64,000 bases of DNA, taken from Algoriphagus chordae (lineage in GTDB: Bacteria; Bacteroidota; Bacteroidia; Cytophagales; Cyclobacteriaceae). The translations under genes were made by a program, and so were the position numbers. The notes under the pieces are model-generated. The model was not told the DNA's origin. It was given only the letters and a program-made list of their open reading frames with translations, and did no database searches. The stretch's first letter is position 1, and each line of letters starts with the position of its first letter. The DNA is taken from positions 62,001-126,000 of the forward strand of contig NZ_QKZT01000004.1 of assembly GCF_003254055.1 (NCBI RefSeq). The letters are read 5' to 3'. This document shows, in pieces, positions 2,933 to 8,698 of this stretch.

Positions 2933-4030
2933 TTAGAGAACTCCCTTGGTACTCGGAAGTTGATTTATATTTCTAGGATCTCTCATTACAGCCATTTTAA
3001 TAGCTCTTGCAAGAGCCTTGAAAATGGCTTCAATCTTATGATGTTCGTTGGCACCTTCAGCTTTGATATTCAGATTACATTTGGCAGTATCCGAGAAAGA
3101 TTTGAAGAAATGGTAAAACATCTCAGTAGGCATATCACCAACTTTTTCTCGTTTGAATTCCGCATCCCAAACGATCCAGGGTCTCCCTCCAAAATCAATC
3201 GCAGCCTGCGCCAATACATCATCCATAGGCAATAGGAAACCATAGCGATAAATACCTTTTTTGTCTCCCAAAGCTTTCAAATAAGCCTCGCCAAGTGCTA
3301 GGGCAGTGTCTTCAATTGTATGATGTTCATCTATATGCAAGTCACCATTTACCTTGATTTCCAGATCTGTGCTACCATGTTTTCCTAGTTGTTCCAGCAT
3401 ATGGTCAAAGAAATGCAAACCTGTCTTGATATCGCAGTGGCCGTTTCCGTCTAAGTTTAGCTTGATATAGATATCAGTCTCAGAAGTTTTGCGACTTACT
3501 TCAGCAGCACGAGGAGGCATTTTCAGAAACTCATAGATCTCATCCCAATCTGTAGTGCTCAAAGCAGCGCTTTCATTTGGCTCTCCGATGAAAATGGCTT
3601 TTGCCCCAAGATTCTCAGCAAGCTTCACGTCGGTCAATCGATCTCCGATTACAAAGGAGTTTGCAAGATCATACTCTTCAGAAAAGTAAGCTGTCAAAAG
3701 GCCAGTATTAGGCTTTCTGGTAGGAGCATTTTCACTTACAAAGGTCTTGTCTACATGGATTTCCTTGAAGAAAATATTCTCCTGCTCCAGCGTTTTCAGC
3801 ATCTTAAATTGTGCTGGCCAGAAGCTGCTTTCAGGAAATGAATCTGTTCCCAAACCATCTTGATTTGTCACCATGACCAGTTCATATTCAGTCTCTTCGG
3901 CGATCTTTCGAAGGTTAGAAATAGCCTTCGGCAAAAACTCTAACTTCTCTAGGCTATCAACCTGATAATCAGTTGGTGGTTCTTTAATAATCGTACCATC
4001 CCGATCTATAAAAAGTACTTTCTTTTGCAT
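2933..4030 (-). CDS. hisB: HisB: histidinol-phosphatase / imidazoleglycerol-phosphate dehydratase
   Basis: Bifunctional enzyme for steps 6 and 8 of histidine biosynthesis. The N-terminal HAD phosphatase part (about residues 1-165) carries 'DRDGT' with Asp9 and Asp11, and the later '[12 protein letters not shown]' motif. The C-terminal dehydratase part has the metal-binding signatures '[13 protein letters not shown]', '[11 protein letters not shown]' and '[13 protein letters not shown]'. The 365-residue length matches the fused enterobacterial-type HisB. It is last in hisG-hisD-hisC-hisB, starts 3 bp after the hisC stop, and is followed by a terminator, so hisH, hisA, hisF and hisI must lie elsewhere. 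Confidence 0.97.
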
Positions 4031-4033
4031 GGT

Positions 4034-5101
4034 TTATAGGTTAAAACTTTCGGTGTATATTTTTTTCAAGGCTTGTAAAAAAGCCTCATTTTCTGGTCTT
4101 GTACCAACAGAGATTCTTAGGCATTCCTCACATAGTTGCACTTTCGATCTATTTCTAACGATGATTTTTTCTTCGATCAGATCATCATAGACATGACTTG
4201 CATTTGGGATTTTCACCAAAAGAAAGTTTGCATGGGAAGGATAGATCTTTTCCACAAAATCAAGAGCTGTCATTTCCTTCCTCAGGTATTCTCTTTCTTG
4301 TAGCATATCCGCAATCATAGCATTGACTTTAGCAACATTTCGTACTGCTGCCAAGACTGTTTGCTGAGTTAGACCAGAGATATTATATGGAGGCTTAATA
4401 CGATTGAGGACTTTGATCATCTGCTTTGACGCGAATGCCATGCCCAAGCGCAAGGATGCTAGTCCCCAAGCCTTGGAGAAGGTCTGCATCACGAGCAGAT
4501 TACCATAGTCGTTTATATAATTGGTAAAACTTGGCTCATCGCTAAAATCTATGTAAGCTTCATCTACGACTACTAGGCCTTTGAATTCTTGAAGTAATCG
4601 CAGGATATCCTCACGGTTCACCTTATTCCCACTAGGGTTGTTGGGTGAGCAGACAAATATGATCTTGGTATGCTCATCCGTAGCGCCTAGGATTTTGTCT
4701 GTCTGAAGCTGGAAATCTGCTGTAAGTGGAATCTTGCGAGTTTCCACATCATTGATACCGGCACTTACCTCATACATTCCATAGGTAGGAGGTAGGAGTA
4801 TCACATTATCTTTTCCTGGATTGCAAAATGCTCTGAATAGAAGGTCTATCGCCTCGTCAGAACCATTTCCTAAGAAAATCTGAGAGGATTTCACATTCTT
4901 TATTTCAGCTATTTCAGCCTTTAGTTCAAGCTGATATGGATCAGGATAGCGATTGTAATCCTCGTCTGTGACTGATCCATAAGGATTTTCGTTTGCATCC
5001 AGAAATATGCCTTCCTTGCCTGTATATTCATCACGAGCGGATGTATATGGCAAAAGATTCACTATGTGTGGTCTAAGTAATGGGGTTATGTCAAACTTCA
5101 T
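4034..5101 (-). CDS. hisC: HisC: histidinol-phosphate aminotransferase
   Basis: PLP-dependent class I/II aminotransferase converting imidazole-acetol phosphate and glutamate to histidinol phosphate and 2-oxoglutarate. Visible signatures are 'LDANENPYG' near residue 35, 'GNGSDEAIDLL' near 79, 'SPNNPSGN' near 152, 'VVDEAYIDF' near 178 and the PLP-binding Lys210 in 'TFSKAWGLASLRLG'. Length 355 residues is normal. The gene overlaps the hisD stop by 4 bp (ATGA type) and is followed 3 bp later by hisB, so it is translationally coupled within the his operon. Confidence 0.97.
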   Translation of the reverse strand: MKFDITPLLRPHIVNLLPYTSARDEYTGKEGIFLDANENPYGSVTDEDYNRYPDPYQLELKAEIAEIKNVKSSQIFLGNGSDEAIDLLFRAFCNPGKDNVILLPPTYGMYEVSAGINDVETRKIPLTADFQLQTDKILGATDEHTKIIFVCSPNNPSGNKVNREDILRLLQEFKGLVVVDEAYIDFSDEPSFTNYINDYGNLLVMQTFSKAWGLASLRLGMAFASKQMIKVLNRIKPPYNISGLTQQTVLAAVRNVAKVNAMIADMLQEREYLRKEMTALDFVEKIYPSHANFLLVKIPNASHVYDDLIEEKIIVRNRSKVQLCEECLRISVGTRPENEAFLQALKKIYTESFNL

Positions 5102-6393
5102 TTGTTCTGTTTATTAAGATGTTTGAGTCTTATAGTAACGGCATTTTTGTGCCCTTCCAGTAGTTCATTTTCCGCCATGATTTCTATGGTCGGCCCTATG
5201 TTTTTCAATCCCTCTGGTGTAATTTTTTGATAAGTGATTTTCTTCACAAAACTGTCTAGCGATACTCCGCTATAATTTCTTGCGTAGCCGTAAGTAGGCA
5301 AGGTGTGGTTAGTGCCAGAGGCATAATCTCCTGCTGATTCAGGGGTGAAGTTGCCTATGAAGACTGAACCTGCGTTGTACACGGCATTCACGGCTTTGTC
5401 TTCTTCCTCTACACTGATAATTAAGTGCTCAGGAGCATAGAAATTGATCAGCTCCATAGCTTCCTCAGCATTGTCCATTAATACAGCTCGGGAATTTGCT
5501 AAAGCTTTTTTGGCGATATCCTTTCTAGGTAAATTCTCCAGCTGTTCATCAATTTTTTTGATGACCTTCTTGGCAAATTTCTCAGTTTCGGTGACCAAAA
5601 TAACCTGGCTGTCTACGCCATGCTCTGCCTGAGAAAGCAGGTCTGCAGCTACGAAAGATGCATTTGCGGAAGCATCAGCGTATACCAATACCTCCGATGG
5701 TCCTGCTGGCATGTCAATAGCTACGCCGTATTTAGTGGCTGTTTGCTTGGCTGCGGTTACGAATTGATTTCCAGGGCCAAAGATCTTATCAACTTTGGGC
5801 ACACTTTCAGTTCCAAAAGTCATGGCCGCAATAGCCTGAGCACCGCCCACTTTTACGATTTTGCTGATGCCAATCAAATTAGCAGTGTAAAGTATTGCTG
5901 GGTGGATTTTACCTTCTTTGTTGGGAGGGGAGCAAAGCACTATTTCCTTGCATCCAGCCAATACTGCAGGTATTCCCAACATCAATACGGTACTGAAGAG
6001 TGGGGCAGTTCCCCCTGGAATATATAATCCAACCTTTTGGATGGCTACGCTTTTTCTCTTACAAACTACTCCAGGCATCACTTCATCCACCAATTCAGGC
6101 GTTTCTTGTGCCTTATGGAATCGTTCAATATTTGCTTTAGCGACCTGGATCGCTTCTTTTAATGCTGGATCAAGTGCCTCTGATGCAGATTGTATTTCTA
6201 TTTCAGAAGGGAAAAGTGAATCTAACTCAACATGATCGTATTCCATTGCGAATTTGAAAAGGGCTTTGTCGCCATTTCTTTTCACTTTTCGCAGAATTGG
6301 TTTCACGATCTTATTGATCTCCTTGGTTTTGAACACTGGACGAGCCAATTGTTTCTTCCAAGAATCCTTAGCGGGGTTGTCAAGGATTTTCAT
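5098..6393 (-). CDS. hisD: HisD: histidinol dehydrogenase
   Basis: Zinc- and NAD-dependent enzyme oxidising histidinol to histidine in the last two steps of the pathway. The 431-residue protein shows the family landmarks 'GLYIPGGTAPLFST', 'GPGNQFVTAAKQ', 'DMPAGPSEVLV', 'SQAEHGVDSQ' (zinc site Gln/His) and 'YAPEHL' (catalytic Glu-His pair), and ends with the typical 'EGHKNAVTIRL'. It is second in the operon, 40 bp after hisG, and overlaps hisC by 4 bp. Nothing looks unusual or truncated. Confidence 0.97.
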   Translation of the reverse strand: MKILDNPAKDSWKKQLARPVFKTKEINKIVKPILRKVKRNGDKALFKFAMEYDHVELDSLFPSEIEIQSASEALDPALKEAIQVAKANIERFHKAQETPELVDEVMPGVVCKRKSVAIQKVGLYIPGGTAPLFSTVLMLGIPAVLAGCKEIVLCSPPNKEGKIHPAILYTANLIGISKIVKVGGAQAIAAMTFGTESVPKVDKIFGPGNQFVTAAKQTATKYGVAIDMPAGPSEVLVYADASANASFVAADLLSQAEHGVDSQVILVTETEKFAKKVIKKIDEQLENLPRKDIAKKALANSRAVLMDNAEEAMELINFYAPEHLIISVEEEDKAVNAVYNAGSVFIGNFTPESAGDYASGTNHTLPTYGYARNYSGVSLDSFVKKITYQKITPEGLKNIGPTIEIMAENELLEGHKNAVTIRLKHLNKQNK

Positions 6394-6433: not shown

Positions 6434-7294
6434 TTAAAGAATCATCTTCTCAATAGGAACGACTAGGATGCCTTCTGCACCAGCAGCTCTGAGTTCCTCA
6501 ATGTTTTCCCAGAATTGATCCTCGTTCAAAACGGAGTGCACAGAGGACCAACCTTCTTGCGCCAGTGGAAGTATAGTAGGGCTACGCATACCAGGAATCA
6601 ATGAGATGATTTTGTCTATAGATTCGTTTGGGGCATTGAGCAATACGTATTTACTGCTTTTTCCTTTTTGGACGGCGTTGATTCTAAAGAGGAGCTTTTC
6701 GGCTATTTCCTTCTTCCAGTCTGGAAGATCGTTGTGCGCTATTAAAACAGCTTCGGATTTGAAGATTTCTTCCACTTCCTTCAGACCATTCATCATTAGC
6801 GTAGAGCCAGAGCTTACGATATCGCAAATTCCTTCTGCCAAACCTATGCTTGGAGCGATCTCTACTGAACCTGAGATTTCGTGAATATCAGCCTTGATAT
6901 TTTGGGCTTTAAGGTAATCACCAAGGATCTTTGGGTAGGAGGTCGCAATGTTTTTCCCTTCGAAAAAGGATACGCCAGAATATTCCTGTCCTTTGGCTAC
7001 GGCTAGCGAAAGTCGGCATTTAGAAAAGCCTAAAGCCTTCATCGTAGTGACATTCTTGTCTTTCTCTACGACTTCATTTTGTCCTACTATTCCAAGATCT
7101 GCAACACCATCGGCCACGTAGCCAGGGATATCATCATCGCGAAGGAATAAGAATTCGATTGGGAAATTGGTGGAAGTAGACTTGAGTTTGCCTGTTCCGT
7201 TATAAAATTTAATACCACATTCTTTGATGAGGCTAAGTGAATCGTCTGATAGTCTGCCGCTTTTTTGCACGGCAATACGGATTATTTTTTCCAT
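6434..7294 (-). CDS. hisG: HisG: ATP phosphoribosyltransferase (long form)
   Basis: First and feedback-controlled enzyme of histidine synthesis, joining ATP and PRPP. The 286-residue length is the long form that carries its own C-terminal ACT-like regulatory domain (about residues 210-286), so no HisZ partner is required. Recognisable motifs are the N-terminal 'IAVQKSGRLSDDSL', 'ADLGIVGQNEV' and the PRPP-binding region 'EGICDIVSSGSTLMMNGL'. It heads hisGDCB. A promoter and a short His-rich leader peptide lie upstream, so the operon may be controlled both by feedback on this enzyme and by attenuation in the leader. Confidence 0.97.
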   Translation of the reverse strand: MEKIIRIAVQKSGRLSDDSLSLIKECGIKFYNGTGKLKSTSTNFPIEFLFLRDDDIPGYVADGVADLGIVGQNEVVEKDKNVTTMKALGFSKCRLSLAVAKGQEYSGVSFFEGKNIATSYPKILGDYLKAQNIKADIHEISGSVEIAPSIGLAEGICDIVSSGSTLMMNGLKEVEEIFKSEAVLIAHNDLPDWKKEIAEKLLFRINAVQKGKSSKYVLLNAPNESIDKIISLIPGMRSPTILPLAQEGWSSVHSVLNEDQFWENIEELRAAGAEGILVVPIEKMIL

Positions 7295-7347
7295 GGTCGC
7301 AAGTTACGCTAAGAAGTAAAAGATTGTAATAAATGTTGGCGAAAAGC

Positions 7348-7408
7348 GGAATCCCTATCATCGGCTTCACCGGGTTTGTAAAAATATTCCTCAGGAGGAA
7401 TGATGGAA
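7348..7408 (-). promoter_or_regulatory. Candidate his attenuator (alternative hairpins)
   Basis: On the minus strand, AUUCCU (7401-7396) pairs with AGGAAU (7391-7386) in a hairpin spanning the leader stop codon and followed by five U (7384-7380). A competing pairing joins GGAAU (7390-7386) to AUUCC (7352-7348). A further one pairs CCAUCAU (7406-7400), which contains two His codons, with AUGAU(A)GG (7361-7354). Mutually exclusive stems involving the codons where a ribosome would stall are what an amino-acid attenuator needs. The pairings are read by eye, with no energy calculation, and the assignment as attenuator is inference. Confidence 0.5.
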
Positions 7409-7474
7409 ATGGTGCACCAAGTTGCCCTGATGTGCTGTTGCCAAAAAATCAATATTTCTATTGTTGTTTTCCAT
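7391..7474 (-). CDS. His operon leader peptide (HisL-like)
   Basis: A 27-codon ORF from ATG at 7474-7472 to TGA at 7393-7391, just upstream of hisG. Its C-terminal half holds five His codons, four of them in the cluster HHFHH (7414-7400) three residues before the stop. Such clusters are the hallmark of leader peptides at which ribosomes pause when charged His-tRNA is scarce. The ATG lies only about 10 bp after the -7 box of a consensus promoter, so the transcript would be nearly leaderless. The peptide has no other recognisable function. The start could also be set further upstream by in-frame codons, but the promoter position argues for 7474. Confidence 0.7.
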   Translation of the reverse strand: MENNNRNIDFLATAHQGNLVHHFHHSS

Positions 7475-7483
7475 TATCGTTGG

Positions 7484-7514
7484 CAAAGATAGACTTCGAT
7501 TAATAAAATGCAAA
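7484..7514 (-). promoter_or_regulatory. Promoter of the his operon
   Basis: On the minus strand: -33 element TTTG (7514-7511), 19-bp spacer, -7 element TATCTTTG (7491-7484). This is a full match to the Bacteroidota primary-sigma consensus TTTG-N19-TAnnTTTG. Transcription would start near 7479, a few bases before the leader-peptide ATG. Confidence 0.75.
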
Positions 7515-7597
7515 TTGAGATAAACTTTTTTGCAGTATTTTTTATCTTGTAACTGTACTATCCTGTAATAGCCTTTCACAAAAAGTATCGCTCCAGC

Positions 7598-8698
7598 TTA
7601 ATCTTTTTGAATGATTTCATCCAATTCTTCCCAGTCTCCTGCAAGTGCTTGAGTTATGACTTGATTCCATTTGGATTGCATCCCGCTATTAATGCCATGT
7701 TTCGTTTGGCTGTCATACAATTCCTGCAAGCGATTCATCTCTCTGTAAGCATCCAGATATATGTCATTGAGCTTCGCTTCAAAAAGATCTGGTTCCAATT
7801 CAGTAGCATTCAACCTAGCTATCATACGATCTGCAGCAATTCGAGTCAAATCAAAATGTCTTTGCTCATGATTGTTGGCATAAGCATTTGCATCCTTTAC
7901 CCAAGATTGGCTAGGGAGCATATATACTTTTACCTTGATGGTCTGTACGATTTCTCCAGCTTCTATACTGGCATTTCCCTCTATCGCCAAACTGCTGAAG
8001 ATCGTCGCGTTGAATGTACTTAGTGGATTGGGAGAATCCCTGAAGTCATCCCAAGTCAGCGGTTGTGCTGGATCATAGAATACCGTGTCTCGGCTACTTT
8101 CTCTTGTAGGGTCGAGGATATTCAATTTGACTTTTTTCACCAGGGATCTGTTGCTTTGATATTGGGTGCTGATCCATGCATCGAAATATTCCCAGCTATT
8201 CTCAAATAGCGTCTGAATGGAAGATTCTACATAATGCATCTGTGTGGCAGGTCTGCTATATTCAAGTTTGCCATTGAAATCGACAAGATGAACAGGTTCT
8301 TGTTTTCCGAGTAAAAAGAAGCCTAAGCTTAACTGTAACTCGCCTTTATATGCTCTTCTGTCAGCTTGAAAAACCTCTTTTAGGTCTAGGTTATAGATTT
8401 TTACTTCCAACTCATGGGAGATATTTTGGCTTGGACTGACCATAGCTTTGTAAAAAGCTAGTGCTTCTTGAGCTAGCTCTTCCTCAAAGCTTAGCTCGTT
8501 CTTTTCCCGCTGAGGATCATAGATTTGTCCAATGGATTTGTCGACACGAGAATCCAATACTTGCTTGAAAATGTAATTTCTTTCTTGAGGAGCTTTTTCC
8601 GCAGGCTGAAGTTTTACAATTACTTTTTGTGCAAAAGTATTCTGAGTGCCAATAGCCATTGCTAGTAGAAGAACAACTGATGACAGGATTCGAATCAT
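7598..8698 (-). CDS. Secreted DUF922-type putative zinc peptidase
   Basis: A 366-residue exported protein with a type I signal peptide (cut near 'TFA-Q', residue 23-24). The C-terminal third matches the DUF922 pattern: 'LTWDDFRDSPNP' near residue 214, then an HExxH-like 'HEQRH' at 277-281 inside 'NNHEQRHFDLTRI', and near the end 'YDSQTKHGINSGMQSKWN'. HExxH normally binds zinc and supplies the catalytic Glu in metallopeptidases, so a periplasmic peptidase is plausible; activity is unproven for the family as far as I know. The N-terminal 200 residues are unassigned. It is a single gene with its own likely promoter at 8748-8779. Confidence 0.75.
   Translation of the reverse strand: MIRILSSVVLLLAMAIGTQNTFAQKVIVKLQPAEKAPQERNYIFKQVLDSRVDKSIGQIYDPQREKNELSFEEELAQEALAFYKAMVSPSQNISHELEVKIYNLDLKEVFQADRRAYKGELQLSLGFFLLGKQEPVHLVDFNGKLEYSRPATQMHYVESSIQTLFENSWEYFDAWISTQYQSNRSLVKKVKLNILDPTRESSRDTVFYDPAQPLTWDDFRDSPNPLSTFNATIFSSLAIEGNASIEAGEIVQTIKVKVYMLPSQSWVKDANAYANNHEQRHFDLTRIAADRMIARLNATELEPDLFEAKLNDIYLDAYREMNRLQELYDSQTKHGINSGMQSKWNQVITQALAGDWEELDEIIQKD

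Follow-up and report, generated by a model that had tools for sequence, protein, structure and literature searches.

The enterobacterial hisL is an attenuator with a His-rich leader. How, then, is a his operon controlled when it is preceded by a leader of this kind and by no recognisable intrinsic terminator? This question is raised by the hisGDCB operon of Algoriphagus chordae, which is located in the 64,000-nucleotide stretch of DNA analyzed here, referred to as the window. All coordinates given below are those of the window, and all the features described at this locus lie on its minus strand.

The his operon and its leader ORF

Comparison with NCBIfam profiles identified an operon in the order hisG (ATP phosphoribosyltransferase, the first gene, 6434–7294; TIGR00070, 1e-54), hisD (5098–6393; TIGR00069), hisC (4034–5101; TIGR01141) and a bifunctional hisB (2933–4030; NF003937), the same gene order that had been proposed in a preliminary description of the locus. 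The gene found 5′ of the leader (7598–8698) had no NCBIfam match at 1e-5. The consensus promoter noticed earlier upstream of hisG was also correctly read: a −33 element, TTTG (7514–7511), is separated by 19 nt from a −7 element, TATCTTTG (7491–7484), and 9 nt further on is the leader ATG, at 7474. The leader ORF, hisL (7391–7474), consists of 27 codons plus the stop codon (7393–7391) and encodes MENNNRNIDFLATAHQGNLVHHFHHSS. Near its end, the codons CAC CAT TTC CAT CAT (HHFHH, 7400–7414) are followed by two Ser codons and the stop. The spacer between the hisL stop and hisG (7295–7390) has 96 nt and, as judged by a terminator scan and a hairpin threshold, no recognisable intrinsic terminator.

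Among the 131 rows with the type II architecture described in the next section, a promoter box was found in 119, with a median distance of 9 nt between its end and the leader ATG. In 104 of the 119, a TTG is located approximately 15–24 nt before the box. The median distance in type I was 12 nt with a wide spread (48 of 74 rows boxed). Promoters of this Bacteroidota type have their start site a few bases past the box. If this rule applies, type II leaders would be near-leaderless, and the hisL of the window is probably near-leaderless as well. Leaderless mRNAs amount to 5.5% in F. psychrophilum according to an excerpt of PMC9723704. Another box, TAACTTG (7300–7306), is located 5 nt 5′ of the hisG ATG and resembles the −7 box minus one T, which is missing from the box before hisG in most rows. 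This TAnnTTG box may be a second promoter, from which transcription would skip the leader. Near −7 boxes before hisG were also seen in relatives, such as TATATTTG in L021 and L033.

The best HisG matches came from Algoriphagus, with identities of up to 98%. A close set of 79 rows was assembled from the best 80 of 128 related HisG loci (Cyclobacteriaceae and relatives), minus two duplicates and plus the window. The 27-codon ORF with HHFHH near its end, as originally described, is not peculiar to the window: a His-rich leader was found before hisG in 78 of the 79 rows, and the sole miss, L068, has just 68 nt of upstream sequence. These leaders have 25–34 codons, except in one cut-off contig, and most commonly end in HHFHHSS or a similar sequence. 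Of the 78, 74 have their last His codon within three codons of the stop, and the N-terminal half of the peptides is variable.

Order, class and family genome samples were added to the close set to form a wider set. Six loci with no recognisable hisG start (L180, L189, L190, L207, L210 and L218) and five duplicates (L028, L030, L139, L152 and L155) were excluded. Of 238 Bacteroidota rows classified, 205 had a His leader and 33 did not; the counts are over rows, and rows from one genus are not independent. Leaders were picked automatically, with L229, L238, L242, L255, L260 and L282 as doubtful rows. In L260 (G380), there are two short ORFs with His codons, one ending 9 nt and the other 64 nt upstream of hisG. 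Of the 205 preselected His-leader rows, 199 passed an ATG-only test, 136 of them with a TAnnTTTG box no more than 20 nt away. The 2050 dinucleotide-shuffled controls yielded 77 passes, 2 with a box, and the 205 reverse strands yielded 8, none with a box. With a His-rich ORF behind a promoter before the operon and a conserved codon run, hisL has the sequence features of a his leader-peptide regulator. The leader ORF might instead be a relic, or a translation enhancer that does not sense histidine, and the missing terminator is the only point in favor of this reading. It is highly improbable, however, given that across dozens of genera the His run has retained its position toward the end of the ORF, in peptides that are otherwise divergent.

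An Rfam scan of the window matched no family, and there was no covariance-model match at the gathering score for the Rfam his leader, which we take to be RF00514. In matching no Rfam family, the window differs from Bacteroid-trp (RF01692), presumably a trp leader. The available extract of PMC2864571 presents Bacteroid-trp as a cis-regulatory motif of Bacteroidetes.

Two leader architectures

The preliminary description had stated that no terminator is placed as in E. coli, and a scan of positions 7200–7600 indeed found none. Neither hallmark of a classical attenuator, the GC hairpin with a U-tract or the mutually exclusive antiterminator, was recognisable in the his leader of the window. The trp genes provided an internal control. 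In the window's own genome, the region upstream of trpE (L289, contig C17) includes the leader MKTIANKYWWWHSYSFQKEV and, after its stop, the terminator AAAAGGCTTACTGGATTTCCGGTAAGCCTTTTTT. This is a classical trp attenuator, with a WWW leader and a T6 terminator. Leaders with WW or WWW plus a hairpin with a T-run, the terminators being judged by eye, were found upstream of trpE in 18 of 18 same-genus genomes, the window's included. Since a textbook attenuator is present at trpE in the same genome, the absence of a terminator at his is locus-specific. No noteworthy Phe leader was seen upstream of the PDT gene (pheA) in Algoriphagus.

The His-leader rows were divided into two types. Those with a hairpin of −10 kcal/mol or better and at least five T were assigned to type I and the others to type II, which makes the lack of a strong hairpin with a T-run in type II a matter of definition; L184, at −9.7 kcal/mol, is only just type II. 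This threshold produced 74 type I and 131 type II rows, the window among the latter. Type I leaders are classical attenuators with hairpins of −11.5 to −26.4 kcal/mol (median about −16.4) followed by at least five T. The types were unequally represented in the samples: type I, type II and rows without leader numbered 56, 7 and 9 in the class sample (72 rows), 16, 40 and 4 in the family sample (60 rows), and 2, 6 and 19 in the order sample (27 rows). The position of the His codons also separated them: 115 of the 131 type II leaders had their last His within three codons of the stop, versus 15 of the 74 type I leaders. The spacer skew, (C−G)/(C+G), had a median of 0.20 in type II versus 0.00 in type I.

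A tree built by a quick search from 83 hand-chosen HisG proteins requires three changes of type, as compared with a shuffled mean of 27. These are one deep split, with an SH-aLRT value of 90 that is below the tool's star level, plus L161 and L132. As the types come close to a single split on this tree, the association between late His codons and terminator absence represents about one event, long kept, and the Fisher value obtained for it does not stand for many independent cases. L132, from the order-level genome G088, groups with the type II rows on the tree. Its leader ends in HHSS with a stop hairpin seen by eye, and a GC-rich hairpin with U5 lies 92 nt before hisG. Both architectures are thus found in one leader.

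The stop-codon hairpin and the spacer

A best-hairpin search with shuffle controls located H1, AUUCCU-CCUG-AGGAAU (7386–7401), at the end of the window's leader ORF. Its stem begins inside the last His codon, two of the three bases of the stop codon are in the loop, and its energy is −3.9 kcal/mol, with 14 of 200 shuffles equally good. Across the wider set, the best stop-overlapping hairpin in 117 distinct type II rows had −4.71 kcal/mol versus −1.80 kcal/mol for controls in which the sequence 3′ of the stop was shuffled, and 56 of the rows were at the 5% level or better. The corresponding values in 72 type I rows were −1.29 versus −1.30 kcal/mol, with 3 rows at 5% or better. Because the search was confined to hairpins overlapping the stop, their position follows from the method, and what counts as evidence is the excess over shuffles. 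Among the 131 type II rows, 89 had an H1 hairpin of −3 kcal/mol or better, and a hairpin this stable was also present in 12 of the 72 type I rows. In 73 of those 89 type II rows the stem starts 1–2 nt inside the last His codon, with the stop wholly or partly in the loop. The arms are diverse yet complementary, as in TTCCTCC/GGAGGAA, ATTGCT/AGCAAT, ATCTCTC/GAGAGAT and TGTGC/GCACA. In L045, L120 and L254 the stop is located beyond its usual place and the hairpin, by eye, is seemingly kept. The 3′ arm of H1 had no partner downstream in 76 loci (−5.73 kcal/mol observed versus −6.28 kcal/mol shuffled). There is consequently no classical antiterminator, and a 2:3 antiterminator formed by this arm was rejected.

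The other candidate hairpin, H2 (7338–7371), has the form GGUGA..UCGCC in the window, with an imperfect inner stem, and belongs to the Algoriphagus group. There it covaries (GGUGA..UCACC), with eight cells changed on both sides and a score matched by none of 500 shuffles. It was not, however, more stable than shuffled sequence, and H2 was rejected as a stable structure across type II, where spacers were no more stable than their shuffles (mean z between −0.22 and −0.44 in five groups).

Do H1 and H2 conceal an unusual intrinsic terminator that scans miss, and hence a classical attenuator? The preliminary description had noted a hairpin followed by U5. The hairpin does exist, in the form of H1 followed by AU5, and 11 of 39 aligned rows of the Algoriphagus group have TTTTT at the post-stop place. 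The covariation of H2 in Algoriphagus and the GC-rich hairpin with U5 that accompanies a type II leader end in L132 would also suit a hidden terminator. However, H1 is weak at its −3.9 kcal/mol, its 3′ arm is partnerless, TTTTT was found in just 21 of 131 type II rows, and no U-tract directly 3′ of H2 was seen in the alignment. The negative scan and the rarity of TTTTT deprive the earlier hairpin of credibility as a terminator, and both H1 and H2 were rejected in this role. With a textbook trp terminator in the same genome as a further argument against it, a hidden intrinsic terminator is improbable.

A sequence motif was detected in the spacers of many type II leaders. Within the first 40 nt past the stop, 33 of the 131 type II rows carry the motif ATA[TC][CT]G[CT]C (AUAUYGCC in the RNA), as compared with none of 74 type I rows and 27 of 6550 type II shuffles. 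For 31 of these 33 rows, it lies 16–18 nt past the stop. The carriers are 20 Belliella/Echinicola-group loci within L021–L080, L015, L231–L234, L243, L261 and others; the motif is absent from the window. A covariance model, R1, built with 19 sequences chosen partly for this motif, matched once in each of 25 genomes out of 98 from the family, in every case just 5′ of hisG. With the stricter filters of the tool there were no others at E 0.05, and R1 had no match in the window's own genome, where such filters were applied as well. An alternative pairing seen by eye in the Belliella group, AUAUCGCCC with GGCUGUUGAUAU, was discarded because it is not kept in several rows, such as L065 and L066. The pattern GGAGG-N-ATATCGCCC produced only scattered matches in 145 genomes and none were used.

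Pairing between the His codons and the spacer, one of the alternative base-pairings proposed initially, was above chance in the named set of 76 loci (−9.57 versus −7.10 kcal/mol shuffled; 29 of 76 at the 5% level). By group, though, it was clear only in Algoriphagus (17 of 48 at 5%), with a small excess in type I rows (9 of 74) and none in the groups of Belliella, Cyclobacterium/Lunatimonas and the wider family. In swap controls, Algoriphagus spacers complemented the His codons of other groups equally well, which argues that there is no coevolution between His codons and spacer. These stems were therefore rejected as a general switch. The first half of the leader paired with the spacer at −12.70 versus −11.17 kcal/mol shuffled, with 10 of 76 loci at 5%. 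The fold of positions 7474–7291, recommended in the preliminary description as a check, was not above chance (z 0.18). Of the features expected to recur in relatives, the His-rich ORF did so, an outcome in favor of the earlier interpretation, and the stems did in part: H1 recurs, and the stems formed by the His codons are not general.

Proposed control by a ribosome at the end of the leader

Leader-peptide attenuation is not new in Bacteroidota, and a comparative attenuation study by Vitreschak et al. in 2004 reportedly touches Bacteroidetes. Such attenuation was inferred for amino-acid operons of F. psychrophilum in excerpts of PMC9723704, where an element located 5′ of hisG appears as conserved in other genera of Flavobacteriaceae and as having no Rfam family. 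That element is like hisL in its place and could be of either type; type I predominates in the class sample analyzed here. Leader-like short ORFs of B. thetaiotaomicron are mentioned in a portion of PMC7366714. The open-access literature searched contained no description of a terminator-less his leader for Bacteroidota, PMC9723704 being the one relevant match. Enterobacterial hisL and the Bacteroidota type I leaders are similar to the window in that a short His-rich ORF stands directly before hisG in the same operon. They differ in that the window has no recognisable intrinsic terminator or antiterminator, and in that its His codons come last in the ORF but for two Ser codons, with a hairpin overlapping the stop, whereas those of hisL and type I precede a tail.

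The preliminary description also suggested that translation could be the process controlled. A stalled ribosome would then free the hisG start from structure with transcription unchanged, as for the cysteine-run ORFs of mycobacteria. Leaderless polycysteine ORFs of these bacteria were reportedly the subject of Canestrari et al. in 2020. In their near-leaderless start and run of the sensed amino acid, as outlined in passages of the review PMC9031893, they are like type II leaders, and this probable likeness of the start favors translational control. They differ in the amino acid and the phylum, and type II shows no coevolution of the leader with the hisG start. Indeed, the His codons paired with the hisG start better than with shuffled sequences (−7.10 versus −5.94 kcal/mol; 9 of 76 loci at 5%), but native pairs were no better than swapped ones (−7.10 versus −7.11 kcal/mol, p 0.86). 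Folding of 68 sequences left an unpaired fraction of 0.50–0.56 at the hisG start with no ribosome, with a ribosome at the His codons or with one at the stop. Some type II spacers, furthermore, have only 39–60 nt, the shortest being the 39 nt of L239. Neither folding nor the swapped-pair test supported sequestration of the hisG start, and we regard translational control as unlikely.

A ribosome stalled near the 5′ end could also shield the mRNA from decay under starvation. The near-leaderless start and the short spacers would suit such a 5′-proximal roadblock, but both H1 and the terminal position of the His codons would be left unexplained, and this explanation seems to us quite unlikely.

As neither intrinsic termination nor sequestration of the hisG start was supported, the remaining option is control by way of a ribosome positioned where the ORF ends. 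Because a leader with His codons is conserved before hisGDCB, the natural reading would be that histidine supply acts by stalling the ribosome, as originally put forward. We consider it reasonably probable, on the strength of these sequence comparisons, that hisL is a histidine-sensing type II leader of hisGDCB that has no intrinsic terminator and acts through an agent left unspecified. Taken separately, histidine sensing by the leader is very probable and control without intrinsic termination is likely.

According to the proposed mechanism, transcription would start a few bases 5′ of the leader AUG. When His-tRNA is ample, the ribosome would read the terminal His codons, terminate at the stop and depart; H1 would then close around the stop, the spacer would be bare, and hisG expression would be lowered. 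When it is scarce, the ribosome would stall on the terminal His codons, hold H1 at least partly open and stand at the edge of the spacer, and transcription would continue into hisG. The likeliest OFF step would be Rho-dependent termination in or just past the bare spacer. The model is E. coli tnaC, in which, according to an extract of PMC10941005, the rut site is immediately beside the leader stop and the arrested ribosome blocks Rho. In tnaC as in type II the critical position is the end of the leader ORF, where a ribosome would mask the region adjacent to the stop, and the regulatory codons of the 115 type II rows counted above adjoin the leader stop in the manner of tnaC. The two differ in that tnaC senses free tryptophan via the nascent peptide, whereas in type II the codons themselves specify histidine, the trigger would be uncharged tRNA, and Rho is only proposed.

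The evidence on Rho itself is mixed. Both the window's genome and 115 of 118 family genomes contain a rho gene, and two different models found no match in the remaining 3. Two genomes that lack rho by model have type II leaders: G397 (99% complete, 220 contigs), with L258, and G406 (91%, 740 contigs), with L250. Both are drafts, so the missing rho could reflect a lost contig; nonetheless, because of these two type II drafts we slightly lowered our already modest expectation for Rho. Although type II spacers are C-rich as a group, the skew in the 100 nt before hisG of the window was 0.12, which is the median for the 25 upstream regions measured in the window (this one among them), and composition does not single out the window. 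The shortness of some type II spacers, down to 39 nt, also speaks against Rho, and neither H1 nor the AUAUYGCC motif would be accounted for by it. Rho as the OFF agent is a tentative proposal.

Type II could, somewhat speculatively, be a distinct and long-lived class of amino-acid leaders without intrinsic terminator. It would be defined by a near-leaderless start, terminal sensed codons, a covarying stop hairpin and, in many genera, the AUAUYGCC motif, with the types exchanged about once among the HisG rows studied and the terminator retained at the trp operon of the window's genus. The hairpin and the motif could then be a pause site or a factor-binding site that has no described counterpart. 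The two types amount to a natural experiment, in which the same operon, amino acid and phylum are found with and without a terminator and the classical trp attenuator serves as an in-cell control. If type II responds to histidine, stalling at the end of the leader would suffice for control by Rho, pausing, translation or decay, and dozens of genera would be available for its dissection. Searches for attenuators that require a terminator would miss this large Bacteroidota class.

A further pairing was observed within the leader itself. Its first 30 nt paired with its own His-codon region at −5.81 kcal/mol, as compared with −4.80 kcal/mol for the His-codon regions of other leaders (p 6e-5, 76 loci), and this pairing may affect translation of the leader. 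An example is the pairing of AUGAACAG with CUGUUCAU.
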